From the IMG/VR virus record IMGVR_UViG_3300033429_000012, positions 1 to 35,320 of that record: 35,320 nucleotides of DNA; one strand, 5' to 3'. The position numbers and the translations under genes are program-made. The DNA comes from a virus. Below the pieces are notes generated by a model. That model was given only the letters and a program-made list of their open reading frames with translations, ran no database searches and was not told where the DNA came from. Positions 1 through 35,320 of the stretch are shown piece by piece (within the stretch, counting starts at the first letter, position 1; each line of letters starts with the position of its first letter).

Positions 1-14
1 TGTCTGAGCACCTA

Positions 15-58
15 GCTCCCTAAGCCCCTTTCTTCGGATTGGGGCTTTTGTATTTATT
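15..58 (+). terminator. possible hairpin terminator or leader hairpin
   Basis: AAGCCCC and GGGGCTT (about 22-47) form a 7-bp stem around a 12-base loop, followed on the plus strand by TTTTGTATTTATT. On the minus strand, where the flanking genes are read, no T tract follows. It may stop antisense transcription or be part of the leader of the replication gene. Its function is uncertain. Confidence 0.35.
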
Positions 59-118
59 CGAACAACAGATGATAATGTTTCGCGTTTATTATTCGAACAA
101 TGAATAAGAATGTTTCGC
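54..118. repeat. two iteron-like direct repeats upstream of the replication gene
   Basis: TTATTCGAACAA-N9-ATGTTTCGC occurs at 54-83 and again at 89-118, a 35-bp period with both half-motifs exact and both gaps nine bases. Within a unit, CGAACA and TGTTTCG are roughly inverted. The segment is AT-rich and, on the circle, lies about 80-150 bp upstream of the replication initiator. Initiator-binding iterons at an origin are the simplest reading; repressor operators are the main alternative. The second physical copy at 35247-35311 comes from the assembly overlap. Confidence 0.5.
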
Positions 119-148
119 ATTAATCACCTCTTAGGTCGGGGCTTTCTA

Positions 149-587: not shown

Positions 588-646
588 CACTTCCTCCGCT
601 ATTCATTTAGACCTTAAGTGTTAGGTGGCAATCTGGTTGGCTGGCC

Positions 647-1093: not shown

Positions 1094-1137
1094 TGCCCTG
1101 CTCCCTTGCGACGACTTTCCGCATCTTATCCATACCA

Positions 1138-1326: not shown

Positions 1327-1348
1327 AGAAACCCCTCCTAGTCCTGTT

Positions 1349-1377
1349 ATAGTAGTGTATGCTGGAGACAGAATCAA
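1349..1377 (-). promoter_or_regulatory. leftward early promoter
   Basis: On the minus strand, TTGATT (1372-1377) and TACTAT (1349-1354) are separated by exactly 17 bases, a good sigma-70 promoter. It would drive the Cro-like gene and the whole leftward unit. The start codon of the Cro-like gene lies about 20 bases past the -10 box, leaving a short leader with AGGAGG. Confidence 0.65.
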
Positions 1378-1384
1378 GTTATTA

Positions 1385-1402
1385 TGCACATATTTCCTTG
1401 CA
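1385..1402. promoter_or_regulatory. candidate early operator between divergent promoters
   Basis: TGCA-N10-TGCA forms an 18-bp dyad lying between the two divergent -35 boxes and overlapping the rightward one. Its spacing suits a small helix-turn-helix dimer such as the Cro-like protein encoded alongside. Only the 4-base ends are symmetric, so this is tentative. Confidence 0.3.
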
Positions 1403-1426
1403 ATGGTGAAAATACTTTGCTATTGT
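1398..1426 (+). promoter_or_regulatory. rightward early promoter
   Basis: TTGCAA (1398-1403) and TATTGT (1421-1426) are separated by 17 bases, each matching four of six consensus positions. It faces away from the leftward promoter, with the two -35 boxes only 20 bases apart. It would drive the 15-codon leader ORF and the recombination operon. Confidence 0.5.
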
Positions 1427-1475
1427 TACTAGGCGTTAGACGTTTATTACAAACTAAGGCGAGGAGGTGATTATC

Positions 1476-1523
1476 ATGCACGGGGTTCTGTGGAGCAGTA
1501 CAGACAAAGCCCGTTACCAATAA
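1476..1523 (+). CDS. 15-codon leader ORF within a hairpin
   Basis: A near-perfect Shine-Dalgarno, GAGGAGGTGAT, precedes ATG at 1476. The frame encodes MHGVLWSSTDKARYQ and stops at TAA 1521-1523. The coding bases fold on themselves: ACGGG (1480-1484) pairs with CCCGT (1510-1514), and TCTGT (1487-1491) with ACAGA (1500-1504). It is the first translatable frame of the rightward unit and is followed by about 150 bases without a convincing gene. A regulatory leader peptide or a functional mini-protein are both possible. The peptide is not recognised. Confidence 0.4.
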   Translation: MHGVLWSSTDKARYQ

Positions 1524-1670
1524 GCCACCACTAATATTCAGTATTTAATTAAATAGATGATACGAAGCACCGGACTTGGATCAAAGTCGTTGAGACTGAC
1601 AACAGACAAAGCGGCTGGCCCGGCCAATCAGTTCAGGGCACCTACTTTATGATTAATTGAGGGGAATGAG
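1524..1670 (+). other. leader region of the rightward operon
   Basis: No convincing gene lies between the 15-codon ORF and the gene at 1671. The stretch contains an AT-rich patch (about 1530-1556), a second copy of ACAGACAAAGC (1602-1612; the first is at 1500-1510), and the palindrome TGGCC-C-GGCCA at 1616-1626. A 31-codon frame at 1557-1652 has no ribosome-binding site. The region could hold an antitermination or attenuation signal. Confidence 0.35.
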
Positions 1671-1871
1671 ATGAAGCCGCACTACTTTAATCAAGAATCA
1701 GCCGACACCGATGATCTGATGCTTGAGTTGGCAAAGATGCAGGGTTATGTGCCTGATACTTGTTTATTAAGCGGCATGGTCGTGATGGACGAAATCAACA
1801 AAGGCAAGAGTCCATGCTGGGAGTGCGAAGGGCCGAGAGACAAATGCCAAGGCAAGCCAAAACAGGATTAA
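1671..1871 (+). CDS. small Cys-containing early protein (66 aa)
   Basis: Acidic N-terminal half, then a Cys-bearing C-terminal tail with CWEC followed by KCQ. Three clustered Cys could bind a metal. ATG at 1671 follows GAGGGGAATGAG. It is the first ordinary gene of the rightward operon. I do not recognise a function. Confidence 0.6.
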   Translation: MKPHYFNQESADTDDLMLELAKMQGYVPDTCLLSGMVVMDEINKGKSPCWECEGPRDKCQGKPKQD

Positions 1872-1910
1872 CCATGCCTGACAACACCCATTTAGAGGAA
1901 ATATAAGTAA

Positions 1911-2264
1911 ATGAGTTATGACCGCCACCTGGCCAGTCAGGAATTAAAAGAGGAGCTTGAAATGGAAGCTGAGGAAGTGAGAGAGGCCAAGATGGATGCC
2001 AAGGTGGATGATTATATCAGGTTTGCATTGTCGGCCCGCAGACTTGAAACATACCGAGGTACTGAGGTTCCGCAATGGGCATATGAATTTGAATGGGAAA
2101 TATGGCCAGATTGGCTGGACACTATCGACTCTAACCTCATAAACCTTGTCAGGCTTAACCTGCTGGCCGGTGAGCCTGAGAAAGCAGGTCAGGCTATGGT
2201 TGAGTCACTACAGGAATACATGCGTGAGATCGCTTTACAGGCGGTCAGGGATAAGGAGGGTTGA
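1911..2264 (+). CDS. hypothetical acidic protein (117 aa)
   Basis: A highly charged helical N-terminal part (about 1-35, Glu/Lys/Asp-rich, likely coiled coil) is followed by a Trp-rich middle (WAYEFEWEIWPDW) and a helical C terminus. A ribosome-binding site (AGAGGAAATATAAGTAA) precedes the ATG. The end lies just before the next start at 2267. No family recognised; early and small, so possibly host-directed. Confidence 0.65.
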   Translation: MSYDRHLASQELKEELEMEAEEVREAKMDAKVDDYIRFALSARRLETYRGTEVPQWAYEFEWEIWPDWLDTIDSNLINLVRLNLLAGEPEKAGQAMVESLQEYMREIALQAVRDKEG

Positions 2265-2266
2265 GG

Positions 2267-2491
2267 ATGGGCGGACCGAGAGATTTTAATTTTATCACGC
2301 CAGAGGAAGCCGCCGAATTGATGGCTCATGATGGGGTTAAGGATGTGGAATATTATAAACACTTAGCAAATAACAAGGGGATTTGTGAGTGCGGCGAACC
2401 TGTATGGAAACTAGGTGACAACGGGATGTGCTTCTCTTGTACTACTGGCGAAGCTGATGCTTCTGATGATTATGAACTGTCTAATGATTAA
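2267..2491 (+). CDS. zinc-ribbon protein (74 aa)
   Basis: Starts MGGPRDFNFITPEEAAELM. The middle contains CECGEPVWKLGDNGMCFSC, a compact zinc-ribbon with two CxC/CxxC knuckles about 14 residues apart. The tail is acidic. ATG at 2267 is preferred because GGAGG precedes it; a TTG two codons upstream is the alternative. Stand-alone zinc ribbons of this type are frequent in phage early operons; the partner is unknown. Confidence 0.6.
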   Translation: MGGPRDFNFITPEEAAELMAHDGVKDVEYYKHLANNKGICECGEPVWKLGDNGMCFSCTTGEADASDDYELSND

Positions 2492-2600
2492 ACCCCACCA
2501 CAGGCTACCCCTCATCATCCTGGCTCTCTTACTGGCCTGGTCATTGGGATATATCGTGAGCGGGATATTACATGAGATAGCACTGAGGAATGCGTTATGA
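2484..2600 (+). CDS. single-pass small membrane protein (38 aa)
   Basis: Starts MIKPHHRLPL, then has one hydrophobic segment of about 20 residues (LIILALLLAWSLGYIVSGIL) and a short polar tail. The basic N terminus suggests an N-in orientation. The ATG overlaps the end of the preceding gene, and its TGA overlaps the next ATG (ATGA at 2597), which indicates translational coupling. An upstream ATG at 2472 is possible. It lies far from the lysis genes, so a role at the host membrane is only a guess. Confidence 0.45.
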   Translation: MIKPHHRLPLIILALLLAWSLGYIVSGILHEIALRNAL

Positions 2601-2788
2601 GTGAGTGGTACGAGGCAGATAATCATGAAATCGACATTGATATGGAAGACAAAGAGGTCAGCATATTCGTGAAGGCTAATGATTGGGGCAGAGTGTACCT
2701 GACTTTATCCTTTGACCAGATTAGAGACATTAACGCAAAGATACTGGCCACAGATGCCCTACAGGAGAGTAGTGATGAGGGAGATTAA
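2597..2788 (+). CDS. hypothetical acidic protein (63 aa)
   Basis: Acidic protein with an alternating pattern typical of beta strands (HEIDIDMEDKEVSIFVKAN), then a helix. Its ATG is coupled to the stop of the small membrane protein, and its 3' end overlaps the start of the YopX-like gene (2775). No family is recognised. Confidence 0.6.
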   Translation: MSEWYEADNHEIDIDMEDKEVSIFVKANDWGRVYLTLSFDQIRDINAKILATDALQESSDEGD

Positions 2789-3209
2789 ATTCAGGGCGTG
2801 GGACAAAGATAACCATGCATGGGTTACTGATTACGATACTGGCGAAGACTCAACTATTGAATTTTACAATGGTGTTGCTCGCGCTATATCAATTGAACTT
2901 GAGTGTCATTGCGGGCCGCCTGGGTGTGGTGGTTGTGTAGATATGCCGGTTGTCCATGAAGATATAGAGGTCATGCAATACACCGGATTACACGATAAGA
3001 ACGGTAAAGAGATATATGAGGGGGATATTGTAAGGCACTCAAGACAAGCCTCGGTGGTTGGGGAAATTAAATATTATGAGGGGGCTTTTGTTGTGGGCGA
3101 ATGCCTTACCGATTTCGCGATGATAGAGTTTAATGCTCCTAAATATCTTGAAATCATCGGCAACATATACGAAAACCCTGAATTATTAGCGGAGAGTAGT
3201 GATGACTGA
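2775..3209 (+). CDS. YopX-family protein (144 aa)
   Basis: The start MREIKFRAWD, the central MQYTGLHDKNGKEIYEGDIV (about 95-114) and the C-terminal EIIGNIYENPELL are the hallmark segments of the YopX family, common in phages and prophages of unknown biochemical role. An extra loop at about 52-67 carries CHCGPPGCGGC, a Cys cluster not typical of the family. The ATG at 2775 has AGGAGAGTAGTG upstream; the same GGAGAGTAGTGATGA context starts the next gene. Overlaps 2597-2788 by 14 bases. Confidence 0.85.
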   Translation: MREIKFRAWDKDNHAWVTDYDTGEDSTIEFYNGVARAISIELECHCGPPGCGGCVDMPVVHEDIEVMQYTGLHDKNGKEIYEGDIVRHSRQASVVGEIKYYEGAFVVGECLTDFAMIEFNAPKYLEIIGNIYENPELLAESSDD

Positions 3210-3399
3210 GAAAACCTTATTAGCAGTAGCCGTACAGTGCAAGCAACTCTATGAAGGGATATTAATGGGTGAGGTCAGAACGCCCAACAATGTCAATGTG
3301 GGGCTTGAGAAGATCCACCGGGCGAATGCCGAATTTCAGAAAGTGGACTTTGAAAACAGGACAAAGGCAGCGGGGGAATGTGGAGGGTGTGGGGAATGA
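3202..3399 (+). CDS. hypothetical protein with C-terminal Cys cluster (65 aa)
   Basis: A mainly helical small protein ending CGGCGE. ATG at 3202 sits in GGAGAGTAGTGATGA, the same start context as the YopX gene, which it overlaps by 8 bases; GTG at 3199 is the alternative. The reused start context suggests past duplication of a gene boundary. No function recognised. Confidence 0.55.
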   Translation: MTEKTLLAVAVQCKQLYEGILMGEVRTPNNVNVGLEKIHRANAEFQKVDFENRTKAAGECGGCGE

Positions 3400-3656
3400 A
3401 TGAACAAGATATTGAGATATTGGAAGCAACAACCAAATCAGTTCTGGCATCCTGGTGGAGTCAATTAAACCGCTTTGAGTGGCCTGATGATCTGCCTAAT
3501 CCGGAGCCAAGCGAATATATCCGAAATGGAAGGCGGTCTGAGATTATGCGTTGGATTAGTGAGCGCATTGGCGTCAAGGAGTGTCTTCGTGATTGGAATA
3601 AAAAAGGAATGACGGACGAAGAATTTGAGGCTTGGTGGAAGGATGGCAGATTATGA
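3396..3656 (+). CDS. hypothetical protein (86 aa)
   Basis: Starts MNEQDIEILEATT; helical and Trp-rich, with an arginine-bearing middle (RNGRRSEIMRWI). The start overlaps the previous TGA in an ATGA arrangement and follows GGAGGGTGTGGGG. It ends overlapping the next start at 3653. No family recognised. Its position directly before the recombination genes suggests early expression. Confidence 0.6.
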   Translation: MNEQDIEILEATTKSVLASWWSQLNRFEWPDDLPNPEPSEYIRNGRRSEIMRWISERIGVKECLRDWNKKGMTDEEFEAWWKDGRL

Positions 3657-3856
3657 GTAAAGCCCATAACCGTACTCAAGAGGAAAGGGACGATCAGTTT
3701 ATGAGGGAAACTTTTGAGCACATGGCTAATAAAATTAAAAAGTCAGGCGGTTATATGAATTTTGGCGGCAAAACCTTCTATGCGGTTACTTTAAGCAGTG
3801 ATCATAAAGAAGACATAGACCGCTGCATCAAGATATTAGAGGAGAGGAAGAAATGA
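3653..3856 (+). CDS. hypothetical protein (67 aa)
   Basis: Starts MSKAHNRTQEE; basic and helical at the N terminus, then a short beta-rich part (GGYMNFGGKTFYAVTLSS) and a helical tail ending in Lys. ATGA overlaps at both ends couple it to its neighbours, the last of which is the Erf gene. A role linked to recombination is possible from position only. Confidence 0.6.
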   Translation: MSKAHNRTQEERDDQFMRETFEHMANKIKKSGGYMNFGGKTFYAVTLSSDHKEDIDRCIKILEERKK

Positions 3857-4620
3857 CAACTGAAGTGAAAGTAATACCGGAAACCAAGCCATTAGCAAAG
3901 GCTGATATTACACCGATGGACATGCTTAACATGGCGGTCCAGCAAAATGCCGATCTGGATAAACTTGAAAAGCTGATGGCACTACAGGAGCGGTGGGAAG
4001 CTAACGAGGCGAAGAAAGCCTATGTTCGCGCCATGACAGAGTTCAAAGCTAACCCGCCTGAATTATTCAAGAATAAGCATGTACGCTACGAAACCAGCAA
4101 GGGAGTGACAGAATACAGCCATCCATCCCTTGATCATGTCGCTAACACATTAGCAGAGGCAATGAGTAAACATGGCCTGAGTTTTACATGGGAGACAGAA
4201 CAAGGCGAGGGGGGTTTGATTAAAGTCTCCTGCATCATTACCCATGAGCAAGGGCATAGTGAGCGCGTCTCGCTTCAATCATCTCCCGATCAATCTGGTG
4301 GAAAGAACAATATCCAGGCCGTAGGTTCTGCCGTGAAGTATCTACAGCGTTATACCCTGGAAGCCGCCGCAGGAGTTGCCACCAAGGATAGAACTGATGA
4401 TGACGGGCAAGCAGCGGAGCCGGTTGAGTTCATTACTGAAGAACAGGTTAATACCCTGCATTCATCGGCAACGGAAACGGGAACGTTGAAAGGGTTTGAG
4501 AAATGGCTGAAAACCATCAAAATTGATTCTATCGGCCAAATCCGGGCTGACAAGTATGAATATTGTCTTGAGCGGTTGAATAACGCCATTGCTGCGAGAA
4601 AACAAAATGCCAAAGATTGA
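3853..4620 (+). CDS. erf: Erf-family single-strand annealing protein (255 aa)
   Basis: Annealing recombinase that pairs complementary single strands during phage recombination and genome circularisation. The ERF signature is at about 147-176: GGKNNIQAVGSAVKYLQRYTL and then EAAAGVA. Upstream, HPSLDHVANTLAEAMSKHGL matches the conserved N-terminal half of the family. The C-terminal part (about 190-255) is a variable charged domain. The length is normal. It directly precedes a YqaJ exonuclease, forming a two-component Red-like system in which the nuclease makes single strands that this protein anneals. The start is coupled to the previous gene by ATGA. Confidence 0.9.
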   Translation: MTTEVKVIPETKPLAKADITPMDMLNMAVQQNADLDKLEKLMALQERWEANEAKKAYVRAMTEFKANPPELFKNKHVRYETSKGVTEYSHPSLDHVANTLAEAMSKHGLSFTWETEQGEGGLIKVSCIITHEQGHSERVSLQSSPDQSGGKNNIQAVGSAVKYLQRYTLEAAAGVATKDRTDDDGQAAEPVEFITEEQVNTLHSSATETGTLKGFEKWLKTIKIDSIGQIRADKYEYCLERLNNAIAARKQNAKD

Positions 4621-5227
4621 AAGAAATATAGCTCAACAAACGCCGGAATGGTTCGCCGCGAAAATCGGCAAGCCATCAGCGAGCAATGCGTCAAAGCTGA
4701 TAACGTCAACTGGTGAGCCGTCAAAGAGCATGAAAGGCTATGCTAAGTTTCTTGCAAAGGAGATATTTACAGGAAAGCCAGCAAACGATTGGGGCGGGAA
4801 TAATAGCACAGATTACGGGAACGCGATGGAGGATGAGTCAAGGGCGGCTTACGAGCTATTAACTGGCTACGAAGTAGAACAGGTAGCGTTTATAGTTGAC
4901 GACGGAGACCGCTATCTGTGTTCGCCGGACGGCCTTATTAGTGACGACGGAGGTTTCGAGGCAAAAAACAAGCCGAAACTGCATCTGGATACACTGCTTT
5001 ATTGGTATAAATATAAAAAACTTGAACCGGACTACATCCCACAACTTCAAATGAGCCTGTTTATTTCTAAACGGGATTGGTGGGATATTTACTATCACAA
5101 TCCGGATCTTCCGTGCCTGAAAGTAAGAGTAGAGCCTGATCTAAAACTACACCGAACTCTTGGAATGCAACTAGCAGAAGTAATTCATGAAAGAGACAAA
5201 ATCGTAAAAATATTAGAGGAATTCTAA
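4607..5227 (+). CDS. YqaJ-like phage exonuclease (206 aa)
   Basis: Lambda Exo/YqaJ-type exonuclease (PD-(D/E)XK fold) that resects double-stranded DNA ends. Visible core motifs are: an early QQTPEWFAAKIGKPSAS, the helix GNAMEDESRAAYE (about 71-83), the catalytic CSPDGLI (D108), GGFEAKNK with E118 and K120, and PQLQMSLF with a conserved Gln. The ATG at 4607 overlaps the end of erf by 14 bases, which suggests coupled synthesis of exonuclease and annealing protein. An upstream in-frame ATG at 4589 is possible but has a poorer context. Confidence 0.9.
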   Translation: MPKIERNIAQQTPEWFAAKIGKPSASNASKLITSTGEPSKSMKGYAKFLAKEIFTGKPANDWGGNNSTDYGNAMEDESRAAYELLTGYEVEQVAFIVDDGDRYLCSPDGLISDDGGFEAKNKPKLHLDTLLYWYKYKKLEPDYIPQLQMSLFISKRDWWDIYYHNPDLPCLKVRVEPDLKLHRTLGMQLAEVIHERDKIVKILEEF

Positions 5228-5228
5228 G

Positions 5229-6236
5229 ATGGAAACCCAAATTGCCGAGTACAGCGAATTTGAAGCCAAGATGGCTGAGTTCAAAGAGACCTATGATAAC
5301 GTGGTTTATGATCTGACCGATCCGGTACATGAGAAGAAAGCCCGGTCTGACAAGTATTCAATCGGCAAAGTCATCAGCGCCTTGGATAAGAAACACGATG
5401 AACTCAAGGCACCATTAAAGGCGCAAGTTGACTTGATTGATGGCGAGCGCAAACGGATCAAGGATGAATTGCTCGAAGTTCAGGGTAAGATCAAAGACCA
5501 GATCAAGGCCCACGACGACGCGATCCGCGAACATGCTGAAATGCTACAGGGAAAGGTGGATGAGATTTATGGGTTAGTACAGTTTGGGGAATTTGAAACT
5601 CCGACATCCGAGCAACTCATGACCCGCATTATCACACTGGAAGCCCTGGAGGTTGATGATGCGTTTGAAACCCGCAAGGCCGATGCGACTCTGGCCAAGG
5701 TCGATACCCTCAAAATTCTCAAGGCGCTGCATGAGAAGCAGAAAAAGCATGAGGACGAACAGGCCGAACTGGAGCGACTGAGAAAGGAAAAGGAAGAACG
5801 AGACCGGCTGGAGCGGGAAGAACAGATCAGGAAAGAGGCGGCTGAAAAGGCCAAACAGGAAGCTGAGGAAAAGGCCGAGCGGGATCGCCAACATGCTGCC
5901 GAGGTAGCCGAGCGCATCAGAAAGGAAGCCGAAGCCAAGGCAAAACAGGCTGAAGCTGCCGCCCAGGCGGAGGCTGACAGGAAAGTGAGGGAGGCCGAGG
6001 AACGTGGGCGCCAAGCGGTTATCGAAGAACGGGCCAAACAGGAAGCCGAAGCAAAGAAAAAGCGCGAAGCTGAAGCGGCAGAAGCAAAGAAAAAGGCCGC
6101 CCAGTCGCATCGGGCCAAGATCCACAAAGCGGCCAAGGACTCATTCATCAAGGAAGGAATCGGCAATAGCGAAGCTACCCTGATCGTTGAGTTAATCCGG
6201 GACGGTAAGATCGCTCATGTGGTGATTGAGTATTAG
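5229..6236 (+). CDS. coiled-coil recombination-associated protein, DUF1351-like (335 aa)
   Basis: The N-terminal part (about 1-150) resembles the DUF1351-type proteins that accompany phage recombinases; it includes DLTDPVHEKKARSDKYSIGK. A long, very highly charged coiled coil of Glu, Lys, Ala and Arg repeats covers about 165-295. A short globular tail follows (SFIKEGIGNSEATLIVELI), similar to the end of many phage recombination accessory proteins. It starts one base after the exonuclease stop. Long ORFs on the opposite strand (5567-6166) are shadows of the repetitive coiled coil. Confidence 0.75.
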   Translation: METQIAEYSEFEAKMAEFKETYDNVVYDLTDPVHEKKARSDKYSIGKVISALDKKHDELKAPLKAQVDLIDGERKRIKDELLEVQGKIKDQIKAHDDAIREHAEMLQGKVDEIYGLVQFGEFETPTSEQLMTRIITLEALEVDDAFETRKADATLAKVDTLKILKALHEKQKKHEDEQAELERLRKEKEERDRLEREEQIRKEAAEKAKQEAEEKAERDRQHAAEVAERIRKEAEAKAKQAEAAAQAEADRKVREAEERGRQAVIEERAKQEAEAKKKREAEAAEAKKKAAQSHRAKIHKAAKDSFIKEGIGNSEATLIVELIRDGKIAHVVIEY

Positions 6237-6238
6237 CC

Positions 6239-6490
6239 ATGAAAAAGTGCAGCAACCCCGAGTGTGAGACAAAAGGCGAACTCCTGCCGGATAGCGCCTT
6301 CTACTCTTACCATAATGCAGCCAAGGGGAGAATGTGCTTATCCTCACGGTGTCGGGTATGCGAGCGTAAAAGACGAATGAAGTACATGGGCGGGGGCGAG
6401 TCTCGGGTGAACAGGAAGAGGCCGGCGACTCTAGCTCATGATCAAGCATGGATTAACGAAGTGATGAAAATACGGTTAGTAAGAGGTTAA
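6239..6490 (+). CDS. small zinc-finger protein, HNH-leader-like (83 aa)
   Basis: Starts MKKCSNPECETKGELLPDS and continues with CRVCERKRR, a four-Cys treble-clef-like pattern (C4, C9, C38, C41 approximately) that resembles the zinc-binding N-terminal part of phage HNH-like proteins. No His-Asn-His catalytic triad is visible, so it is probably a DNA- or protein-binding zinc finger. A basic stretch follows the fingers. It starts two bases after the preceding stop with no clear ribosome-binding site, so reinitiation is likely. Confidence 0.6.
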   Translation: MKKCSNPECETKGELLPDSAFYSYHNAAKGRMCLSSRCRVCERKRRMKYMGGGESRVNRKRPATLAHDQAWINEVMKIRLVRG

Positions 6491-6491
6491 T

Positions 6492-6594
6492 AGGCAGGTG
6501 GCGGAATTGGTAGACGCTATGGGACGGGGAAAGTTAACGTGTGCCCAAGATCGGCGGGGTTAACGTGCAGGTTCAAATCCTGCTCTGCCTACCA
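6492..6594 (+). tRNA. tRNA-Leu-like gene with an anomalous centre
   Basis: The acceptor stem AGGCAGG (6492-6498) pairs with TCTGCCT (6584-6590), followed by A and an encoded CCA. The T arm GCAGG-TTCAAAT-CCTGC (6567-6583) is perfect. The D arm TGGCGGAATTGGTAGACGC is the class II leucine type, matching gammaproteobacterial tRNA-Leu. Between D arm and T arm there are 49 bases instead of about 32. They contain GTTAACGTG twice (6533-6541 and 6559-6567). TGGG/CCCA could form an anticodon stem, but around a 20-base loop, so no normal 7-base anticodon loop can be assigned. It may be a damaged tRNA, a decoy or a tRNA with a small insertion. Confidence 0.6.
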
Positions 6595-6655
6595 AATTAG
6601 TAAGTGGTTAAACGATTAATGAGAACCCGCATCATCCCACCCAAGGGGCAAGACA

Positions 6656-6886
6656 ATGAAATTAACCGGTGATAAATGCCAATGTTCGGCCTGCGATGAG
6701 CTATTTAACTCTACCTTTGCCTTCGATAAGCACAGAAGGGGCCGACACGGGGTGAATAGGCGCTGCCTGACCCCAGATGACATGTTAGCCGTGGGCATGG
6801 CGCTAAATCAGCGTGGTTTCTGGATTAGCGCTGGTCATAAGTGGGGTAGAGAGAAGGGCGCTGAGAGAGCGCCTACACAGGCTTAG
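6656..6886 (+). CDS. phage zinc-finger protein (76 aa)
   Basis: CQCSACDELFNSTFAFDKHRRGRHG near the N terminus resembles a C2H2-type finger. The downstream NRRCLTPDDMLAVGMALNQRG matches a small protein family seen in many phages of Proteobacteria, of unknown function. ATG at 6656 follows AAGGGGCAAGACA. It lies just after the tRNA-like gene. The C-terminal tail (GREKGAERAPTQA) is probably disordered. Confidence 0.75.
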   Translation: MKLTGDKCQCSACDELFNSTFAFDKHRRGRHGVNRRCLTPDDMLAVGMALNQRGFWISAGHKWGREKGAERAPTQA

Positions 6887-6911
6887 AATAGAATTAGAGA
6901 GGGCTAATATT

Positions 6912-7109
6912 ATGGGAAGGTATCTGAGAATAAGGAAACATTGGGGGATAGAGCCGGGGCAGACTGTCGCGGTTCCGAAGAACCTGGAAACCTTCATCTA
7001 TATCCGTGGTTATGATTCTCATGGCGATAAGGGCAGGCTCTATATTGCCGAGGAGGATATAACAGGGCTGGTCCTGGCCCTGCTGGATGTCCAGAGGCGC
7101 AAGGGATGA
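6912..7109 (+). CDS. hypothetical protein (65 aa)
   Basis: Starts MGRYLRIRKHWG; basic N terminus, then a beta-rich part and a helical end (ITGLVLALLDVQRRKG). GAGAGGG lies about 10 bases before the ATG. The open frame extends back to GTG 6813, with a helical Arg-rich segment (RRALRERLHRLRIELERA) that could be part of a longer protein overlapping the zinc-finger gene. The start is uncertain. No family recognised. Confidence 0.5.
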   Translation: MGRYLRIRKHWGIEPGQTVAVPKNLETFIYIRGYDSHGDKGRLYIAEEDITGLVLALLDVQRRKG

Positions 7110-7309
7110 GCCTGATTATCTCTGACCAAGCCTGTATCGAGATCCGGTTCTGGCTGAAACTCGTCCAGTTCGTCCTCATAGGGGCTGCTATCGCCCTTAC
7201 CGCCATGTTGATTGATGCGTCCACGCTAGATCATGCCGCCCACCTGCTGCTCTGGTGCTGTCTGACGGGGTATGTAGTGTGCCATTATTTTCTATCATTA
7301 ATCCCTTGA
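7106..7309 (+). CDS. two-pass membrane protein (67 aa)
   Basis: Two hydrophobic segments are evident: LVQFVLIGAAIALTAMLI (about 19-36) and LLLWCCLTGYVVCHYFLSLI (about 47-66), separated by a short polar turn with Asp and His. The layout resembles a small class II holin, but it lies in the early rightward unit, away from the lysis genes. An inner-membrane exclusion or host-modifying role is equally possible. The ATG overlaps the previous stop (ATGA). Confidence 0.55.
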   Translation: MSLIISDQACIEIRFWLKLVQFVLIGAAIALTAMLIDASTLDHAAHLLLWCCLTGYVVCHYFLSLIP

Positions 7310-7334
7310 TATATTACTAGTAAGATACTATCTT
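7306..7334 (+). promoter_or_regulatory. promoter with an operator-like palindrome
   Basis: TTGATA (7306-7311) and TATCTT (7329-7334) are 17 bases apart and form a good sigma-70 promoter between the membrane-protein gene and the outer-membrane cassette. The perfect 13-base palindrome AAGATA-C-TATCTT (7322-7334) overlaps the -10 box exactly, where a bound repressor would block polymerase. The regulator is unknown. Confidence 0.5.
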
Positions 7335-7350
7335 GTGTATAGAGGCTGAG

Positions 7351-7554
7351 ATGAAACCCAATACTAAATACCAAGCCACGTTTAAGGCAAAGCAAAAAGC
7401 CGATGGTTGGGTTCAGTTTAATGATTGGTGTCATCCCGACGATAAGCCTTACCTGCACCAGGTCTGCAAAGACCGGCGCGACCAACACAAGAGGGAAGAC
7501 GATGAAAATACTACTGATAGCACTGATGATGATCGGGACGGTTCAAGCGTCTGA
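7351..7554 (+). CDS. hypothetical protein (67 aa)
   Basis: Starts MKPNTKYQATFKAKQKADGW; the first part looks globular, with a Cys-His pair (WCHPDDKPYLHQVC). The end is a Ser/Asp/Thr-rich, probably disordered tail that overlaps the start of the outer-membrane gene by 53 bases. It is first behind the promoter at 7306-7334. No family recognised. Confidence 0.5.
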   Translation: MKPNTKYQATFKAKQKADGWVQFNDWCHPDDKPYLHQVCKDRRDQHKREDDENTTDSTDDDRDGSSV

Positions 7555-8155
7555 AGTTGAAGTTATGTTGACCCAGTGGAACCGGATCGCAGACGAAGAA
7601 CGCTACCAAGTCGGAAACTGGCAGGGGATCCAGGTCAATTACAAAAATGACAATGGGGCTTATGTGTTTCTAAGCCATGAAATTGCCCAAGTCATCCCAT
7701 TATGGGGCATCGGTGATTTATCGATGACGGGTATTGGATTTGGATTAACCCATAAAGTAACGCCAAAACTATCAATATTCGGCCATCTAGGTTATTACTT
7801 GGTTTCACATGAGAATGAAGGTAGACACCGCGATGATGTCGCGCTTGAGGGCATGAAATACTATTTCAATGATAAGTTTGATTTTATTCCCGGCGAATAC
7901 CATCAATTCGAGGAATATGAAATAAATTATGAAAACACCATAGCAGGTATTATCGGTATCCAGTTTATCCAGCCAATCACAAAACATTCAGATATTGGCT
8001 TTGCTTTAAGCTATAAATCAATGAAGATATCAGAGGAACTTATTGTTTACCTTGATGATTGGGATTACGAAACAACCGGATGGAGATGGGAACAATCAAT
8101 AACCCGTAACTATAGCGCCATTGGCTTTAGTGCGGTTTATAATTACCGGTTTTAG
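7502..8155 (+). CDS. secreted outer-membrane beta-barrel-like protein (217 aa)
   Basis: A clear signal peptide (MKILLIALMMIGTVQA, probable cleavage after residue 16) leads into alternating polar/aromatic strands across the protein, including SIFGHLGYYLVS and SDIGFALSYKSM. It ends in YNYRF, the aromatic C-terminal residue typical of outer-membrane beta-barrels. Phage proteins of this type (lambda Lom, for example) alter the host surface or block superinfection; the exact role here is unknown. The ATG at 7502 follows GAGGGAAGACG. A longer frame to 7403 lacks a signal peptide. It has its own promoter (7306-7334) and a terminator 170 bases downstream. Confidence 0.75.
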   Translation: MKILLIALMMIGTVQASEVEVMLTQWNRIADEERYQVGNWQGIQVNYKNDNGAYVFLSHEIAQVIPLWGIGDLSMTGIGFGLTHKVTPKLSIFGHLGYYLVSHENEGRHRDDVALEGMKYYFNDKFDFIPGEYHQFEEYEINYENTIAGIIGIQFIQPITKHSDIGFALSYKSMKISEELIVYLDDWDYETTGWRWEQSITRNYSAIGFSAVYNYRF

Positions 8156-24656: not shown

Positions 24657-25964
24657 TTAACGTGCAAATCTTACGCTGATATCAAATGCCGGGTTATTCA
24701 CCGGATAATCATAATCAATCATGTAGCCGATAGCTGTGCTGATATGTTGGTATTGGTTGGTCTGGTCTTCCTGGAATGAAGATCCTTTCTGTAGTTGCAC
24801 AGTGGCCAGCCCCTTATCACACCAGGGCGCATTGCTTGGGTTTACGAATAGCGTCCTATGGCCATCGGCTGTACATATCTTAGCCCTGACCGCATTTTGT
24901 CTGTCCTTAATAGCAGGATGGGCGGCCTTGATTCGTCTCGAATACTTCCATCCGTGTTCTTTAAGAACTTCCTCGATCTGGGTATAATCCGATTCGTGGG
25001 CATGCTTCTCGCCTGCTTTGCCTGCTGGATCGCCATATAACAGGACGTTCTTGTTGTCGTGATCTTTGTACTTCTCCACAAACTCTAAAGCTGATTGCCT
25101 GGATACCGCAGAAGTTAACACAATCTCATCAAGCAAATAGACGTCATCTTCATCCTTGATTCCTATCGCGCTTGATAGCGGGGTGTAGTTCTGATCGTGC
25201 ATCCACAGCAATTGTTCATGCTTCTGTATTACTCGATCAGTATGGTTCGCGGTTGAATAATCCTCATAAATGCGCCCGACTGCGGTCTCGAAGCTGGCCT
25301 CAAACTCCTGCCGGTACTGTTTTGCGCTCATCTGCCGCTTTGCGGCTGCAATTACATCAGGCGGTAATATATCCGCGCTTATCCAGTGATAGAAGCCCCA
25401 ATCCGGGTCATTGGCTGATTGTGCGTATTGGGCTAAATCGTAATAGTGGTTTAACCCTTCCGGGACCCCGAACAGCCAGCACCAGGCGCGATAATCAGGG
25501 CGCGTCGGATCTACCGTATTCAGTGCCGGAAAGATGTTTGATTCCCATGCTTCAGGCTTACAGTCGGCAATCTCATCAATCCCGCCGCCCGTCCAGTTAA
25601 TCCCCTCAAATCTGGCCGGTTTATCCAGGCCGATTAAGTGGATCTCAGTGCCATTAGGCATGAATATAATCTTGTCAGTCTCACTAGGCTGCTTCGGGTG
25701 TTTAGAGGAAAAAGTCAGCGCCTTGATATCATCCCAGAATATCTTTTTAGCCTGGTTATGCGTTGGCGCGCCCATGAAGTATTTTTCATTAGGGTTTTTC
25801 ATGGCCTCTTTGGCAATCTTGCGCTTAAAGCGTTCTGTTTTGCCAGATCGACGGCCTGCCGGTATTACCTTAATCCGCCTATCTTCGGTGATTAGCCTGA
25901 TTTGTTCAGGGATATCTTTTAATTCATACCACCGGGCAAGCTCTCTATTGAGCCGAACACTCAT
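24657..25964 (-). CDS. terL: terminase large subunit (435 aa)
   Basis: ATP-driven packaging motor and nuclease. The Walker A-type loop GRRSGKT is at 37-43; the Walker B motif GGGIDEIAD is at about 126-134, with catalytic E131. The C-terminal nuclease part contains YGDPAGKAG (D312) and SDYTQI (D326), likely metal-binding residues. Length is normal. Its start overlaps the stop of the small subunit (ATGA), so both subunits are probably translated together. Confidence 0.93.
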   Translation of the reverse strand: MSVRLNRELARWYELKDIPEQIRLITEDRRIKVIPAGRRSGKTERFKRKIAKEAMKNPNEKYFMGAPTHNQAKKIFWDDIKALTFSSKHPKQPSETDKIIFMPNGTEIHLIGLDKPARFEGINWTGGGIDEIADCKPEAWESNIFPALNTVDPTRPDYRAWCWLFGVPEGLNHYYDLAQYAQSANDPDWGFYHWISADILPPDVIAAAKRQMSAKQYRQEFEASFETAVGRIYEDYSTANHTDRVIQKHEQLLWMHDQNYTPLSSAIGIKDEDDVYLLDEIVLTSAVSRQSALEFVEKYKDHDNKNVLLYGDPAGKAGEKHAHESDYTQIEEVLKEHGWKYSRRIKAAHPAIKDRQNAVRAKICTADGHRTLFVNPSNAPWCDKGLATVQLQKGSSFQEDQTNQYQHISTAIGYMIDYDYPVNNPAFDISVRFAR

Positions 25965-26395
25965 CCCGGCAACTTGTCAGCCATCTTATCGAATAACGCA
26001 ATAAGGTCGGCATGCCCCCCTGAGTCGTCTTTATTCTCGCGCCAATTCTCCGGGTCGCGGTTCTTAAGCCAGAATATGCAAGATGTAGCATCAGGCGGGT
26101 AATGCTTGATTGTGGGCACTACAAGCCCTTCATCGGTGCCATTGTTAAATATCTTGTCCTCTGGGTGCGAATAGCCTATCGCTCTATGGTAAAGCGCCTG
26201 CTTAACCCTTGTATCCGCTTCGTCCTTGCCTTGTTTTAAGGACTGTAAGAATTCAGGAAAGTTTTTTTTCCAATTATTGATAGTCTTCTCGCTAACTTCA
26301 AAGAAATCAGCCAGTTCTATATCAATAGCCCCTAGCTTGGTTAGCTTTGCGGCCTGTAATGCGTACTCTGGTTTATAACTGCTTTTCCTGGCCAC
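25961..26395 (-). CDS. terS: terminase small subunit (144 aa)
   Basis: DNA-recognition subunit of the packaging enzyme. A helix-turn-helix lies near the N terminus (AIDIELADFFEVSEKTINNWKKNF, about 23-46). The C-terminal half carries ALYHRAIGYSHPED and KHYPPDATSCIFWLKNRDPENWR, typical of the family. The GTG start at 26395 follows GAGGATGGGCTT. It binds the packaging site, probably in the noncoding stretch upstream (26396-26559), and passes DNA to the large subunit. Confidence 0.93.
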   Translation of the reverse strand: MARKSSYKPEYALQAAKLTKLGAIDIELADFFEVSEKTINNWKKNFPEFLQSLKQGKDEADTRVKQALYHRAIGYSHPEDKIFNNGTDEGLVVPTIKHYPPDATSCIFWLKNRDPENWRENKDDSGGHADLIALFDKMADKLPG

Positions 26396-27835: not shown

Positions 27836-28462
27836 CTATAAAAAGCTCTGCTGTCTGGTTTCTCGGTCAAACCGATCCATTGCAGCTTGGTAGTAATCGG
27901 GATCTATCTCACAGCCTACAAAATCACAGCCGAAGTAATGAGCGGCGATGGCGCTAGACCCGCTGCCAAGATGGGTATCAAGGATTCTTTGTCCGGGGTT
28001 TGCGTAATTTGCCAATAACCAGTCATACAACTCTATAGGCTTCTGCGAAATATGTATTTTTTTGTCGGCTGAAGTTAATCCTTGTAAATTACCGTAGTAT
28101 TTGAATGGAAAACATTTTGCCGGTTCGCTAAACGAAGTCCACGCAAGCTCTCCATCTGAAAAATTAGGTACAGGATTTTGCTTATACCAGAAAACAAAAC
28201 ACTGGGTTGGAGGTAATGGAAAGTAATTCCCGCCCCATATAATTTGGTTTTTGCTAACCCTTCTAACCTGATCAAAATACTCTTTTTCTGGAATTTCCTT
28301 ATCCCAATTTTTAGGAACATTTCCTGCGAAACGACCGTCTTTTCTTGGTCTTTCACTTGCCATATCCAGCCCATACGGAGGATCGCAAATAGCAAGATCA
28401 AAAGCATTATCAGGCTGGGTGGCCATGTATTCCATGCAGTCGATGTTGAGCAGTTCAATCAT
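27836..28462 (-). CDS. DNA methyltransferase, beta class (208 aa)
   Basis: Adds a methyl group from S-adenosylmethionine to DNA, probably at adenine N6 or cytosine N4. The catalytic motif IV DPPYG is at 27-31 and precedes the cofactor motif I (ILDTHLGSGSSAIAA, 160-174), the order of beta-class enzymes of the N6_N4_Mtase family. HISQKP (137-142) is also typical. No restriction partner is seen. It could protect phage DNA from host restriction or regulate it; the target sequence cannot be told from the gene. Start overlaps ninG by eight bases. Confidence 0.9.
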   Translation of the reverse strand: MIELLNIDCMEYMATQPDNAFDLAICDPPYGLDMASERPRKDGRFAGNVPKNWDKEIPEKEYFDQVRRVSKNQIIWGGNYFPLPPTQCFVFWYKQNPVPNFSDGELAWTSFSEPAKCFPFKYYGNLQGLTSADKKIHISQKPIELYDWLLANYANPGQRILDTHLGSGSSAIAAHYFGCDFVGCEIDPDYYQAAMDRFDRETRQQSFL

Positions 28463-28985
28463 GTATTAATGCCTTGGTTTTATCCTTGTAATATTGCTTG
28501 ATGTTCCGGATGTCCTCCCGGCTTAGGTGTTGGGGTTTATGGGGGCCTTCGAGCCACTTTAGTACACTGCTTCCCAATATTTCACTAAGCCGTATCCGAT
28601 AATTCGTGATGTTCCCGGATAAGTGATTATTGCAGGGGGCGCACTGCTTCCAGCAATTAAGCGGATGGAAACGGAGTTCTGGATTTGCTCCCACCGTTCG
28701 ATAATGTCCCGCGTGGTATTGCCCGGCATGGTGTCTGCCGCAGGAGATACAAGGAAGGCCCTTATCTCGCAATCGGATATATTTGTTAAACTCATATTGT
28801 GCTTCCTTCAATAGTTGGCTCTTGGTCTTTGCCGCCTCCCGCATCTTGCGGGTTTCCTTCCTGCGTTCCTTCTTTTCCTTGTGCCTGACTAATTCTATCG
28901 CGCACTTGGGCGAGCAAGCCTTCTGAAACGGCTTTGGCTCCGGTATTTCTGTTTTGCAGTGGGCGCATTTCTTTACTCTAGGCAT
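28455..28985 (-). CDS. ninG: NinG/Rap recombination protein (176 aa)
   Basis: Phage Holliday-junction nuclease of the NinG/Rap family, acting with the Erf/YqaJ recombination system. Zinc-binding Cys pairs near the N terminus (CAHC at 7-10, C24, C28) and the C-terminal block CISCGR (79-84), GQYHAGHYRTVGANPELRFH and LNCWKQCAPCNNHLSGN (about 109-125) are the family signature. The start (ATGCCTAGAGTAAAGAAATG) is repeated exactly twice upstream. Its start overlaps the end of the ASCH gene. Confidence 0.92.
   Translation of the reverse strand: MPRVKKCAHCKTEIPEPKPFQKACSPKCAIELVRHKEKKERRKETRKMREAAKTKSQLLKEAQYEFNKYIRLRDKGLPCISCGRHHAGQYHAGHYRTVGANPELRFHPLNCWKQCAPCNNHLSGNITNYRIRLSEILGSSVLKWLEGPHKPQHLSREDIRNIKQYYKDKTKALIHD
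28966..28985. repeat. 20-bp repeat, copy 1 (ninG start)
   Basis: CATTTCTTTACTCTAGGCAT, on the minus strand the first 20 bases of ninG. Identical copies lie at 29257-29276 and 29707-29726. This copy also holds the stop codon of the ASCH gene. Confidence 0.9.
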
Positions 28986-29259
28986 GGGGCCTTAACTGAA
29001 TAGCAAACACCGATTTTTCTTCACCATTCCACTCATCAGATATGACGTGTTTTATATAATATCCATTCCAGGGAAAGATGATTTGTTTCCCTTTGTCTTC
29101 TTTTTTTGGATATCCGAGCTTGATAATCACCCTGTCGTATTCTTTGCCTTCAAGGCGTTTCGCCCAATATGGCTTTAATTCCCGATATTCTTCAGTTTTA
29201 ATGCCTGATTCAATATCCCTGAACCATCGCTCTCTGACATTTAATATTAAATCCTTCAT
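28978..29259 (-). CDS. ASCH-domain-like protein (93 aa)
   Basis: MKDLILNVRERWFRDIESGIKTEEYRELKPYWAKRL matches the start of ASCH-domain proteins (WFxDIxxGxKTxEYRExKPYW), small RNA- or nucleotide-binding-like domains found in many phages. The frame begins with the last ATG of repeat copy 2 and ends with TAG inside copy 1, so it is exactly framed by the repeats. This suggests it was inserted as a cassette in front of ninG. Possible RNA modification or regulatory role; unproven. Confidence 0.8.
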   Translation of the reverse strand: MKDLILNVRERWFRDIESGIKTEEYRELKPYWAKRLEGKEYDRVIIKLGYPKKEDKGKQIIFPWNGYYIKHVISDEWNGEEKSVFAIQLRPHA

Positions 29260-30147: not shown

Positions 30148-31005
30148 CTACAATGATCGCCACGAATTATTTATTTTTTCTTGCAATATCATGCCAAAAT
30201 TATTTTCTGTATCCGGGATGATTACGTCCCCTTTTCTTTTCAATTGTTGTCTAAATCCTGAATAATCAACGTGGTGATGCCACCTTCCCCACTTCTCAGT
30301 AATCTTGACAACATCGGGGTGGTTTTTTTGTAATTCTTCTACAAACTCTAGCCGTTTCTCTGTCTCGTCGTAATAGTCTGAATTACCGCCTTTCATTGTC
30401 ATAGTAGTTTGCTTCTCGATTAGAAAGGCATTAAAAAGAACAGTACACCATCCGTCTTTTAACATTCTCAGGCTTAAGTCGGTATCCTCATTATAAAATG
30501 TATTCCACCTATAATCATTACCATTTCTGTCTTTTGCAAAAGTGCGGATAAGATTAGCTGAGTATATCCGCGTATTAAGAATATATGGAGGAATAACATA
30601 TTTTCTTTTTACAAACATAAAATAGTTAGGCCCTGTCATCGCTAAATTATCATATCTCTGAGCAAAGTCTTCTATGACGGCGAGAATAGTAGCGTCCCCA
30701 CACGGCGTTTTAAGATTATGATTGAATCTATATAGACCGTTTATGTTGTCATCAAAAGTCCAATACCATTCATGGCCTTGTTCTGCCGCATAATCCCAAA
30801 TATAATTTCTAGTAACCGTTACCCCTTTGTTTTTGTGCGGTAATATATGGATGTTATTTTTATCAACATGCTTTGCATAGGCGTCGTAATCTTGTTCCTC
30901 TATAAATATCGTATAAGGAACATTTAATTTATCGAACATTTTAATCGTCATGCGTGTTTCGGCTCTACCCTTAGTAGGGATGAATATAGGGAATTTAGGA
31001 TTCAT
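30148..31005 (-). CDS. TAGT-like DNA glycosyltransferase (285 aa)
   Basis: MNPKFPIFIPTKGR, HILPHKNKGVTVTRNYIWDYAAEQG, WYWTFDDNINGLYRFN (DD at 85-86), FAQRYDNLAMTGPNYFMFV, YILNTRIYSANLI, FYNEDTDLSLRML (about 170-182) and TMTMKGGNSD (about 200-209) match the TET-associated glycosyltransferases (TAGT) described in phage base-modification systems. DD and NED-TDL are the expected nucleotide-sugar and metal-binding residues of a GT-A fold. It would add a sugar to a modified base in phage DNA. No TET/JBP dioxygenase or hydroxymethylation pathway is visible, so its substrate is open. The gene is AT-rich and was probably acquired. Confidence 0.7.
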   Translation of the reverse strand: MNPKFPIFIPTKGRAETRMTIKMFDKLNVPYTIFIEEQDYDAYAKHVDKNNIHILPHKNKGVTVTRNYIWDYAAEQGHEWYWTFDDNINGLYRFNHNLKTPCGDATILAVIEDFAQRYDNLAMTGPNYFMFVKRKYVIPPYILNTRIYSANLIRTFAKDRNGNDYRWNTFYNEDTDLSLRMLKDGWCTVLFNAFLIEKQTTMTMKGGNSDYYDETEKRLEFVEELQKNHPDVVKITEKWGRWHHHVDYSGFRQQLKRKGDVIIPDTENNFGMILQEKINNSWRSL

Positions 31006-31270
31006 CTTTCACCTCAATATATCGCTTATTCATCATTCTGCCTATCTCTTGCTCAGGGAACCAAATACTCTGCAATTGCTTTGATCCGTTTGCTTTGATA
31101 TTTCGATCTAGCAGTCGGTTAAAGTCCTCAATATCTGCTAAACATGCGAAATTAACAATTAATTGATATTTAGGCGCTAAATCTTCAATGCTATATTCCG
31201 GCATGTTTTTCCATTCTTTGCGCCATGGAATAACCTCATCTAAGCTAAACAACTCGTCTTGTTCTGCCAT
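30995..31270 (-). CDS. partner of the glycosyltransferase (91 aa)
   Basis: Starts MAEQDELFSLDEVIPWRKEW; ends SIWFPEQEIGRMMNKRYIEVKDES. It overlaps the glycosyltransferase start and has AGGAAC upstream, so both are probably made together. No enzyme motif is seen; acidic and helical. Perhaps a regulator, substrate-specifier or inhibitor of the glycosyltransferase. An in-frame ATG at 31285 is possible. Confidence 0.55.
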   Translation of the reverse strand: MAEQDELFSLDEVIPWRKEWKNMPEYSIEDLAPKYQLIVNFACLADIEDFNRLLDRNIKANGSKQLQSIWFPEQEIGRMMNKRYIEVKDES

Positions 31271-32126: not shown

Positions 32127-32450
32127 TTAGGGGTTATCCTCAAAATAGTACCAAGGGCTCGAAACTATGCCCGGCTCCACCTTTGTTATAATCACCGAGC
32201 GGTTATGTTTCAGGTCACTCCATCCGAGCATAAGTTTGTCGCCCGCTTCCAAGCCATAATCGAAATAAGGATATGCCAGCTTAACCCTGTTATTTTCTCG
32301 ATCAACCCAACCATCATTAGGGTGTGCAGCTTTATATCCTTCCGCTTTTAACTGGTTGATCCACGTTTCCTTGCTTTCCCTGTATTCGTCACAGATCCTT
32401 GCAAATTCCGCGACAAACTTCGGTTTCCCGCTTACAGTGCCTGTAGGCAT
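32127..32450 (-). CDS. hypothetical protein (107 aa)
   Basis: Starts MPTGTVSGKPKFVAEFARIC; N-terminal helical part, then a beta-rich C-terminal part (NRSVIITKVEPGIVSSPWYYFEDNP). Preceded by the shared GAGGATATAGTT element. The sequence order of helix then barrel-like strands suggests a small binding domain. No family recognised. Confidence 0.6.
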   Translation of the reverse strand: MPTGTVSGKPKFVAEFARICDEYRESKETWINQLKAEGYKAAHPNDGWVDRENNRVKLAYPYFDYGLEAGDKLMLGWSDLKHNRSVIITKVEPGIVSSPWYYFEDNP

Positions 32451-34160: not shown

Positions 34161-34364
34161 TTAATCATGCAGCGGTTCTGATAGCCCACGGATCTCAACG
34201 CTCTCAACACTGAATCCGCGTGAGTTTTCTTCGACCCATTGCCAAACCTCTTTCAAAGTAATACCCGGCATGAATTCTCTCGCCAGCCTTGGGCGTATCG
34301 CCTTTGTCTCAATCGGCGGTTGACCATGTAGCTGCATAATTACTGAAAATCCTGATTCTTCCAT
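34161..34364 (-). CDS. hypothetical protein (67 aa)
   Basis: Starts MEESGFSVIMQLHG; strand- and helix-like, with GITLKEVWQWVEENSRG. The ATG overlaps the stop of the replication gene (TAATG), so translation is coupled. Perhaps a replication partner, from position only. Confidence 0.55.
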   Translation of the reverse strand: MEESGFSVIMQLHGQPPIETKAIRPRLAREFMPGITLKEVWQWVEENSRGFSVESVEIRGLSEPLHD

Positions 34365-35095
34365 TATCGAACCTCCATCTGCTTACGTCTTTGGTAGGCG
34401 TCCCAGGTTTCCCCCGGCTTCGCGTCGGAACCATCAAACTTTCCTTTCTGGAAGCTCTTGGGTTCGGCAGTGCGTTCTCGTTTCTCCCACGTGCGTATAC
34501 AAGCCTGCCAGTCCTTGATCTTCTTGTTGCCGCTCTGTACCCATCCGTTTGCGGTATAGAAATCAACGAAGGTTTCTGGGTCTACAGAGTTCTTTCTTTC
34601 CCGACAATATTGCTCAACTTCTTGGAGAGAGGGAGGCGTGAAACGCCGATTTCCCCCCTTGTTATTATTATTGTTATTATTATTGTTATTCGGGTTAACG
34701 TCCTTTACTACCTTGAGGGTCGAATTTAACCACCTTTGGTTAAGGATTTTACTACCTTCATCGGGGTGGTTAATCTGGTTAACTACCTTTTGAGGGATGT
34801 TGAGGTCGTAGTGATTGACCGCCTGAAGACCGCCTTTTGACTGAACTGGCACGGATTGGCGGGTTATTGCGATCCACTCGGAATCTTCCAGAACCTTCAG
34901 GTATTTAATTACCGTAGGTTTCGTCAGGCCGGTTTCAGTGACGATTCTGGATAACGAGGGGAAACACGTCTGCTGACGTGGGTTCATGAATGATGCGAAA
35001 TAGAAGCCGATGAATTTGGCGGTGGCGGGTAACTTTTGCACAGCAAAGAGGTTCACCCAGTTATAAGCATCGAGGTTGATTTTAGACGGTTTCAC
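34364..35095 (-). CDS. phage replication initiator (O/DnaD-like, 243 aa)
   Basis: N-terminal winged-helix part (TCFPSLSRIVTETGLTKPTVIKYLKVLEDSEW, about 43-75) resembles phage replication proteins of the lambda O/DnaD type. Then a linker with ten consecutive Asn (136-145), encoded by an AAT/AAC repeat, and a C-terminal domain (SLQEVEQYCRERKNSVDPETFVDFYTANGW ... KDWQACIRTWEKRE) typical of DnaD-like replisome organisers. It would bind the origin, probably the iterons at 54-118, and load the host helicase. The GTG at 35095 has ACAGGAG upstream; an in-frame ATG at 35164 is an alternative, extending the protein to 266 residues. Confidence 0.82.
   Translation of the reverse strand: MKPSKINLDAYNWVNLFAVQKLPATAKFIGFYFASFMNPRQQTCFPSLSRIVTETGLTKPTVIKYLKVLEDSEWIAITRQSVPVQSKGGLQAVNHYDLNIPQKVVNQINHPDEGSKILNQRWLNSTLKVVKDVNPNNNNNNNNNNKGGNRRFTPPSLQEVEQYCRERKNSVDPETFVDFYTANGWVQSGNKKIKDWQACIRTWEKRERTAEPKSFQKGKFDGSDAKPGETWDAYQRRKQMEVR
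34661..34690. repeat. trinucleotide microsatellite coding poly-Asn
   Basis: Thirty bases of (A/G)TT on the plus strand (AAT/AAC on the coding strand) encode ten Asn within the replication initiator. Its length can change by replication slippage, which would alter the linker between the DNA-binding and C-terminal domains. Confidence 0.85.
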
Positions 35096-35193
35096 AATGG
35101 CTCCTGTGTTGACAGGTAGACCATTAGTCTTTATCTTATAACCTGTCATTGACGTGACTATCATCTTACACCTGCTTCCGGGCAACCGCAAGA

Positions 35194-35320
35194 TGTCTGA
35201 GCACCTAGCTCCCTAAGCCCCTTTCTTCGGATTGGGGCTTTTGTATTTATTCGAACAACAGATGATAATGTTTCGCGTTTATTATTCGAACAATGAATAA
35301 GAATGTTTCGCATTAATCAC
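35194..35320. repeat. 127-bp exact terminal overlap, right copy
   Basis: Identical to 1-127. Contains the second physical copy of the iteron-like repeats (35247-35311). Evidence that the contig is circular. Confidence 0.93.

Follow-up and report, generated by a model that had tools for sequence, protein, structure and literature searches.

The window analysed here is the whole of virus record IMGVR_UViG_3300033429_000012 (35,320 bases). Its minus strand carries a gene for a 285-aa TAGT-family glycosyltransferase (PF20691) at 30148..31005, assigned by Pfam, PHROG, motifs and GT-A fold prediction, and at 30995..31270 a gene for a 91-aa acidic protein (pI 4.6), hereafter X, assigned by its conserved domain and by purifying selection. 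The ORF of X opens at 31285, which would give 96 aa; the ATG at 31270 is favoured as the start because a Shine-Dalgarno-like GAGGAA shortly precedes it. The TAGT start has a GAGGTG of its own. The stop of X and the start of TAGT overlap by 11 nt (30995..31005, minus strand, within AAAGATGAATCCTAA), an arrangement consistent with translational coupling. Promoter scores in the X/TAGT region were no better than those of shuffled sequences. The original prediction had described a 285-residue protein with TAGT-like motifs and a 91-residue partner overlapping its start, and both parts of this description hold, the partner being a real, conserved gene.

The larger protein matches PF20691 (TET-associated glycosyltransferase) over the full profile (positions 1-205; E 4.2e-35, 122 bits with a cut-off of 27.5) and PHROG 842 (E 7e-41). 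All the motifs named beforehand are present in it: FIPTKGR, DD at 85-86 (DDN, 85-87), NEDTDL and MKGGNSD. DDN and NEDTD are likely the metal/sugar-nucleotide and catalytic motifs of TAGT, and D-D-N is invariant in 59 of the 59 aligned relatives. The DxD-type position reads DDN in the clade of the window, whereas it reads DDD in T6, TET-linked and ParB-linked TAGTs. The AlphaFold2 model, calculated from an alignment with the 59 relatives, has a pLDDT of 94.4 and a pTM of 0.91. Its best Foldseek match in the PDB is TarP (E 3.4e-6), and VIA-align superimposes it on GalNAc-T2 (Z 14.8, 221 residues, rmsd 4.1) and on many further GT-A enzymes, so that a GT-A fold, which PMC13216743 describes for TAGTs, is confidently predicted for the window protein as well; the original prediction had named a fold lacking a GT-A core as a refuting outcome, and this outcome did not arise. 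The top structural neighbours include protein and teichoic-acid glycosyltransferases; at 8-15% identity such a likeness gives no information on the substrate.

The window is bounded by a direct terminal repeat of 127 bp (1..127, identical to 35194-35320). This repeat indicates that the window is a complete genome, hence the absence of TET/JBP is a statement on the complete genome, and truncation of a contig was rejected as its cause. The gene content is siphophage-like (portal, capsid, tape-measure, terminase, NinG, Erf, YqaJ), with many genes of no known function. Six-frame searches of the window found neither Tet_JBP nor a thymidylate-synthase-type protein (PF00303, Thymidylat_synt), the plausible gene ORFs gave no Pfam match to a dioxygenase, AGT (alpha-GT) or BGT (beta-GT), and the scanned ORFs no detectable match to a ParB_N protein. 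Positive controls were recovered, namely Tet_JBP in P12024L and both td and gp42 in T6. The lack of a TET/JBP or hydroxymethylation gene described in the original prediction is thereby confirmed. As neither a TET dioxygenase nor a hydroxymethylase is encoded, the acceptor should not be a phage-made 5-hydroxymethylpyrimidine. With no recognisable hydroxylated base being made, the acceptor may be a canonical base, the base may be made by an unrecognised enzyme, or the target may not be DNA. Elsewhere in the genome, the predicted replication initiator (34364-35191) contains a low-complexity coding stretch with a run of at least 10 asparagines. Two small conserved function-unassigned proteins flank the modification region at 28978-29259 (phrog_625) and 32127-32450 (phrog_9621, with a weak match to phrog_625 too).

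Among the characterised systems, the TAGT of T2/T6 puts glucose on glucosylated hmC of phage DNA (PMC13216743). T6 ggt (the T2/T6 beta-glucosyl-HMC-alpha-glucosyltransferase) resembles the window TAGT in being a phage-encoded GT-A protein of PF20691 and of the same PHROG family. It differs in that it lies beside the gp42 dCMP hydroxymethylase, needs alpha-glucosylated hmC, has 261 aa and no adjoining X; the window, in turn, has no gp42 and no alpha-GT, has X, and shows DDN instead of DDD. Nonlabens phage P12024L, with its TET/JBP-TAGT operon, is like the window a small tailed phage with a TAGT and a nearby DNA methyltransferase, but its Tet_JBP stands directly upstream of TAGT, X is missing, and the window TAGT is only 24% identical to its counterpart.

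The lack of TET/JBP had led to the label "orphan", which describes the locus correctly without marking an oddity. Tet_JBP is absent from all 36 IMG/VR records (the window and 35 related ones), P12024L is the only one of nine phage records to contain it, and a 2026 study gives solitary TAGTs, i.e. those without alpha-GT and beta-GT, in 288 of 753 phage genomes, their function being undefined there (PMC13216743). The label is explained by membership of the window TAGT in a widespread lineage, described below, in which X is the common element. Glycosylated cytosine has been described in phages carrying thymidylate-synthase-type enzymes (PMC13390438; PMC12838424). No thymidylate synthase occurs in any of the 36 IMG/VR records or in either Vibrio siphophage. 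The large X-TAGT phages do have thymidylate-synthase matches, PTm1 with one additional weak one (E 1.5e-10); a homologue of T6 gp42 was not found in them. Neither the TET nor the thymidylate synthase family occurs among the neighbour clusters of the X/TAGT cassettes.

The X domain was first recognised through a weak tblastn match directly upstream of the TAGT domain, within a single ORF, in Tenacibaculum phage PTm1. It comprises ~75 conserved residues with the pattern WxxMPE[FY]...F...TKSIWFP. X matches no Pfam or PHROG family and has no credible match among PDB sequences (best E 0.63, collagen adhesin); a match to PADLOC GajB (E 0.0096) was taken as chance. The TAGT ORFs compared number 124 (phages, IMG/VR and genomes). 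X directly adjoins TAGT in 101 of them, as the C-terminus of a ParB-like protein (63), solo (27), fused to TAGT (10) or with an N-terminal extension (1). When X and TAGT are separate, they overlap or lie no more than 20 nt apart in 88 of 91 pairs. Nine of the 23 ORFs without an adjoining X have less than 600 nt of upstream sequence; the other 14 include several second copies of tandem TAGTs, the TET-linked P12024L, cases with X further upstream (L081, L093, L108) and cases with a diverged fused X (L060, L063). The reciprocal search, with the X domains of L105 and L097 as queries, fetched 39 loci, some of them near-duplicates of one another or of earlier loci, and TAGT stands next to X in every one. 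X of the window alone, used as a query against viral contigs, gave no matches. In Enterobacterales X was found in 1 of 296 genomes, again adjoining TAGT, this genome being the one used as centre, and plasmids gave no match to X or to TAGT. The search for the partner beside TAGTs of other genomes, which had been suggested along with the original prediction, thus supports X as an obligate genetic partner of TAGT.

PTm1, Vibrio 1.076.O and 1.124.O, Aeromonas Aeh1 and 65, Pectobacterium POP12, Kuja and L005 encode X as an N-terminal fusion to TAGT, and in the window and in L002-L004 the two are separate ORFs that overlap or abut. The fusions of Aeh1, 65, POP12, PTm1 and Kuja contain the same X domain and belong to the same TAGT clade as the window, differing in being single-chain enzymes of 148-235-kb phages while X and TAGT of the window are separate overlapping ORFs. 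Most relatives have X at the C-terminal end of a ParB_N-like protein, whose usual length is about 190-290 aa. As 27 TAGT ORFs of other loci have a solo X like that of the window, the window is classed with the solo-X members of the X-TAGT lineage and not as a ParB-X cassette. Cassettes occur across many bacterial phyla and in an archaeal virus; the lineage is widespread and works without TET or hydroxymethylase.

Comparison with the closest relative, L002, gives pS of 0.84/0.91 against pN of 0.18/0.18 for the two genes: synonymous divergence is saturated and non-synonymous divergence is low, a pattern of strong purifying selection on both. X as a chance ORF was rejected in view of this selection and of its position beside TAGT in the 101 and 39 loci. 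It could also be supposed that the pair is a non-functional, decaying relic of a once-fused two-domain enzyme split in two ORFs, since the fused form exists in the large phages and in L005. This is barely credible: the split form, with intact and coupled frames, is found in L002-L004 and many others, selection is strong and the catalytic residues are invariant in the 59 relatives, and decay was rejected on these grounds. The predicted model of the fused X-TAGT of L005 (pLDDT 88.6, pTM 0.87) is compatible with X packing on TAGT in a fixed arrangement. A fold search with this model in BFVD returned matches dominated by the GT domain. Taken together, it is very probable that TAGT is catalytically active as a glycosyltransferase and that X works with it as a functional partner.

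According to the clustering, the commonest neighbours of the cassettes are ParB-X, the large terminase (43 loci), the small terminase and the portal. In most relatives the X/TAGT cassette is directly upstream of the terminase. In the window it lies ~4 kb upstream of the terminase region (24657..26395), which is formed on the minus strand by the large terminase gene (24657-25964) and the small terminase gene (25961-26395, assigned by position). The methyltransferase noticed near TAGT in the original prediction is indeed an N6/N4 DNA methyltransferase (27836..28462, minus strand; PF01555, 2e-14), ~1.7 kb from TAGT. It is probably incidental, because such genes are sporadic among the relatives: only 7 of 27 related records have an N6/N4 and 4 of 27 a C5 methyltransferase, and a role as functional partner of TAGT was rejected for this reason. 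The X-TAGT pair of L002 is surrounded (453-4247) by two ORFs that look MT-A70-like by eye, with ADPPW/DPPW motifs, and by one N6/N4 methyltransferase confirmed with Pfam.

A different link to methyltransferases is given by the ParB part of ParB-X. That of Erwinia cassette L103 matches PADLOC MTase_II with E 9e-35, and that of L006 matches phrog_498 with E 9e-47; the module is the N-terminal module of phage ParB-methyltransferases. The latter (phrog_498 / PADLOC MTase_II) share ParB_N with ParB-X of the relatives of the window and differ in that their effector is a methyltransferase; the window phage itself has no detectable ParB_N. The expectation of a two-gene system is therefore borne out in so far as X is a genuine partner, but elsewhere X is fused to TAGT or to ParB_N, and judging by the sequences a ParB-like subunit, missing from the window phage, belongs to the wider system. 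Neither the X domain nor a ParB-TAGT link was found in the searched literature, which covered openly accessible papers and not the original TAGT description; ParB and TAGT came up together there only in two unrelated B. subtilis papers, and the chemistry of X-TAGT phages did not come up at all.

A search with the ParB part of L103 led to a sister cassette in E. coli. In a prophage of E. coli W the gene order is ParB protein, 310-aa "hypothetical protein", small ORF, terminase small subunit and terminase. The 310-aa protein is a TAGT (PF20691, E 3.6e-34), and the ParB of this cassette matches PADLOC MTase_II with E 1e-38. The pair (L122:5028-6741, NC_017664.1) is upstream of the terminase in a Rac-like prophage, is found also in Rac-like E. 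coli phages, and is intact (at least 80% of 1,714 bases) in 885 of 5,426 complete E. coli genomes (~16%). The E. coli copies are annotated as hypothetical or, in some cases, as "GREB1-related". K-12 retains only a remnant of the ParB gene (ynaK). TAGTs with a preceding partner gene occur likewise in Lactobacillus phage jlb1, haloarchaeal virus HHTV-2 and Nocardia phage NTR1. These sister cassettes are like the window in having a partner gene, a TAGT, a terminase directly or further downstream and, in all four searched (E. coli, jlb1, HHTV-2, NTR1), no thymidylate-synthase-type enzyme. They are unlike it in that their ParB proteins end in another C-terminal domain, not X, and their TAGTs form a separate, distant clade of the tree, in which the branches of T6 and P12024L are very long, their placement and the deep order are unsure, and the mistranslated PTm1 row is to be disregarded.

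The sister cassette bears on the suggestion that the acceptor of TAGT is an unusual base, supplied by the host or by a phage enzyme that was not recognised. No characterised PF20691 DNA enzyme is known to work without a base that is hydroxylated or glycosylated beforehand, and the many window genes of no known function could hide such an enzyme. However, no candidate recurs among the neighbours of the lineage, the cassettes are spread over the many phyla and the archaeal virus mentioned above, and E. coli, a host in which the sister cassette is common, is not known to make 5-hydroxymethyl bases, an argument that is indirect because the E. coli type is only distantly related. We therefore consider this explanation improbable, and a host-made base unlikely at least for the sister cassette.

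The original prediction also left room for a different target, and a non-DNA target is indeed possible. TAGT could glycosylate a protein of the virion, the packaging machinery, the host or its defence, with X (together with ParB_N in the relatives) as a substrate adaptor. The cassette adjoins terminase, portal and head genes, the phage appears unable to make an acceptor base by recognised enzymes, the GT-A matches of TAGT include protein O-glycosyltransferases, and human GREB1, whose name some of the E. coli copies bear, has a TAGT domain reported to act on a protein. The uninformative nature of the fold likeness weakens this argument, the ParB module is common with DNA methyltransferases, and the characterised phage member, that of T2/T6, acts on DNA (PMC13216743). 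A protein target is a possibility to be kept in mind, though a doubtful one. The versatility of GT-A enzymes makes it conceivable that TAGT modifies RNA or a small molecule (e.g. tRNA, a nucleotide or a cell-surface precursor) during infection, and the L006 cassette (4957-7879), with a cytidylyltransferase-like gene on its upstream side and a radical-SAM/SPASM gene on its downstream side, would fit such chemistry. These neighbours are not conserved at other loci and no membrane or cell-envelope genes recur, which makes this explanation quite improbable; the flanking genes of L006 may possibly have to do with a donor or an acceptor peculiar to that phage.

The best explanation, to which we give an even chance, is that the enzyme glycosylates phage DNA under the guidance of ParB/X and without using 5-hydroxymethyl bases. 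The choice of DNA as the target is itself inferred and evenly balanced. The main new argument for it, drawn from sequence comparison, is the ParB module common with DNA methyltransferases, and the characterised T2/T6 enzyme of PF20691 points the same way; counted against it are the lack of a hydroxylated-base enzyme and of ParB_N in the genome, the acidic nature of X, which makes X unlikely to bind DNA itself, and the protein and teichoic-acid glycosyltransferases among the structural neighbours. Under this explanation X and TAGT would together make up one glycosyltransferase, TAGT as its catalytic GT-A subunit and X as a small subunit dedicated to it; the two presumably bind each other, and the arrangement of their genes fits coupled translation. 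The enzyme would probably be expressed before and around packaging and would add a sugar to the phage's own DNA around that stage, which may protect this DNA from host nucleases. In the relatives ParB_N-X would bring TAGT to the DNA, a role that ParB_N may also have for methyltransferases. The most specific form of the proposal, that the X/ParB-TAGT lineage glycosylates canonical, non-hydroxylated DNA at ParB/X-chosen positions at packaging, seems unlikely to us.

For one lineage of solitary TAGTs these results add a partner domain that appears to be obligate and has no family in Pfam or PHROGs, a link to a ParB module that DNA methyltransferases carry too, a location that is typically upstream of the terminase and the lack of a 5-hydroxymethyl route. 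If the target is DNA, glycosylation would proceed without a hydroxylated base; otherwise a family assumed to be DNA-modifying would act on something else, and both outcomes are informative. The occurrence of the sister cassette in a sizeable part of complete E. coli genomes, including that of the laboratory strain W, makes its function testable in a standard host.

Several loci have tandem, fused or double TAGTs (L071:693-2414, L086:692-2425, L025, L053, L133, L013 and Kuja), which suggests, by analogy with T6, a stepwise addition of sugars. Two cassettes (L068:1269-2759 and L091:6485-7999) hold two glycosyltransferases each: upstream of the normal TAGT, their ParB-like-X protein bears a further, diverged TAGT domain fused to its N-terminus. 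At L074:1901-4234 TAGT forms a fusion with an SNF2-type helicase, which recalls human GREB1, where a TAGT domain is joined to an SF2 helicase (PMC6163654).
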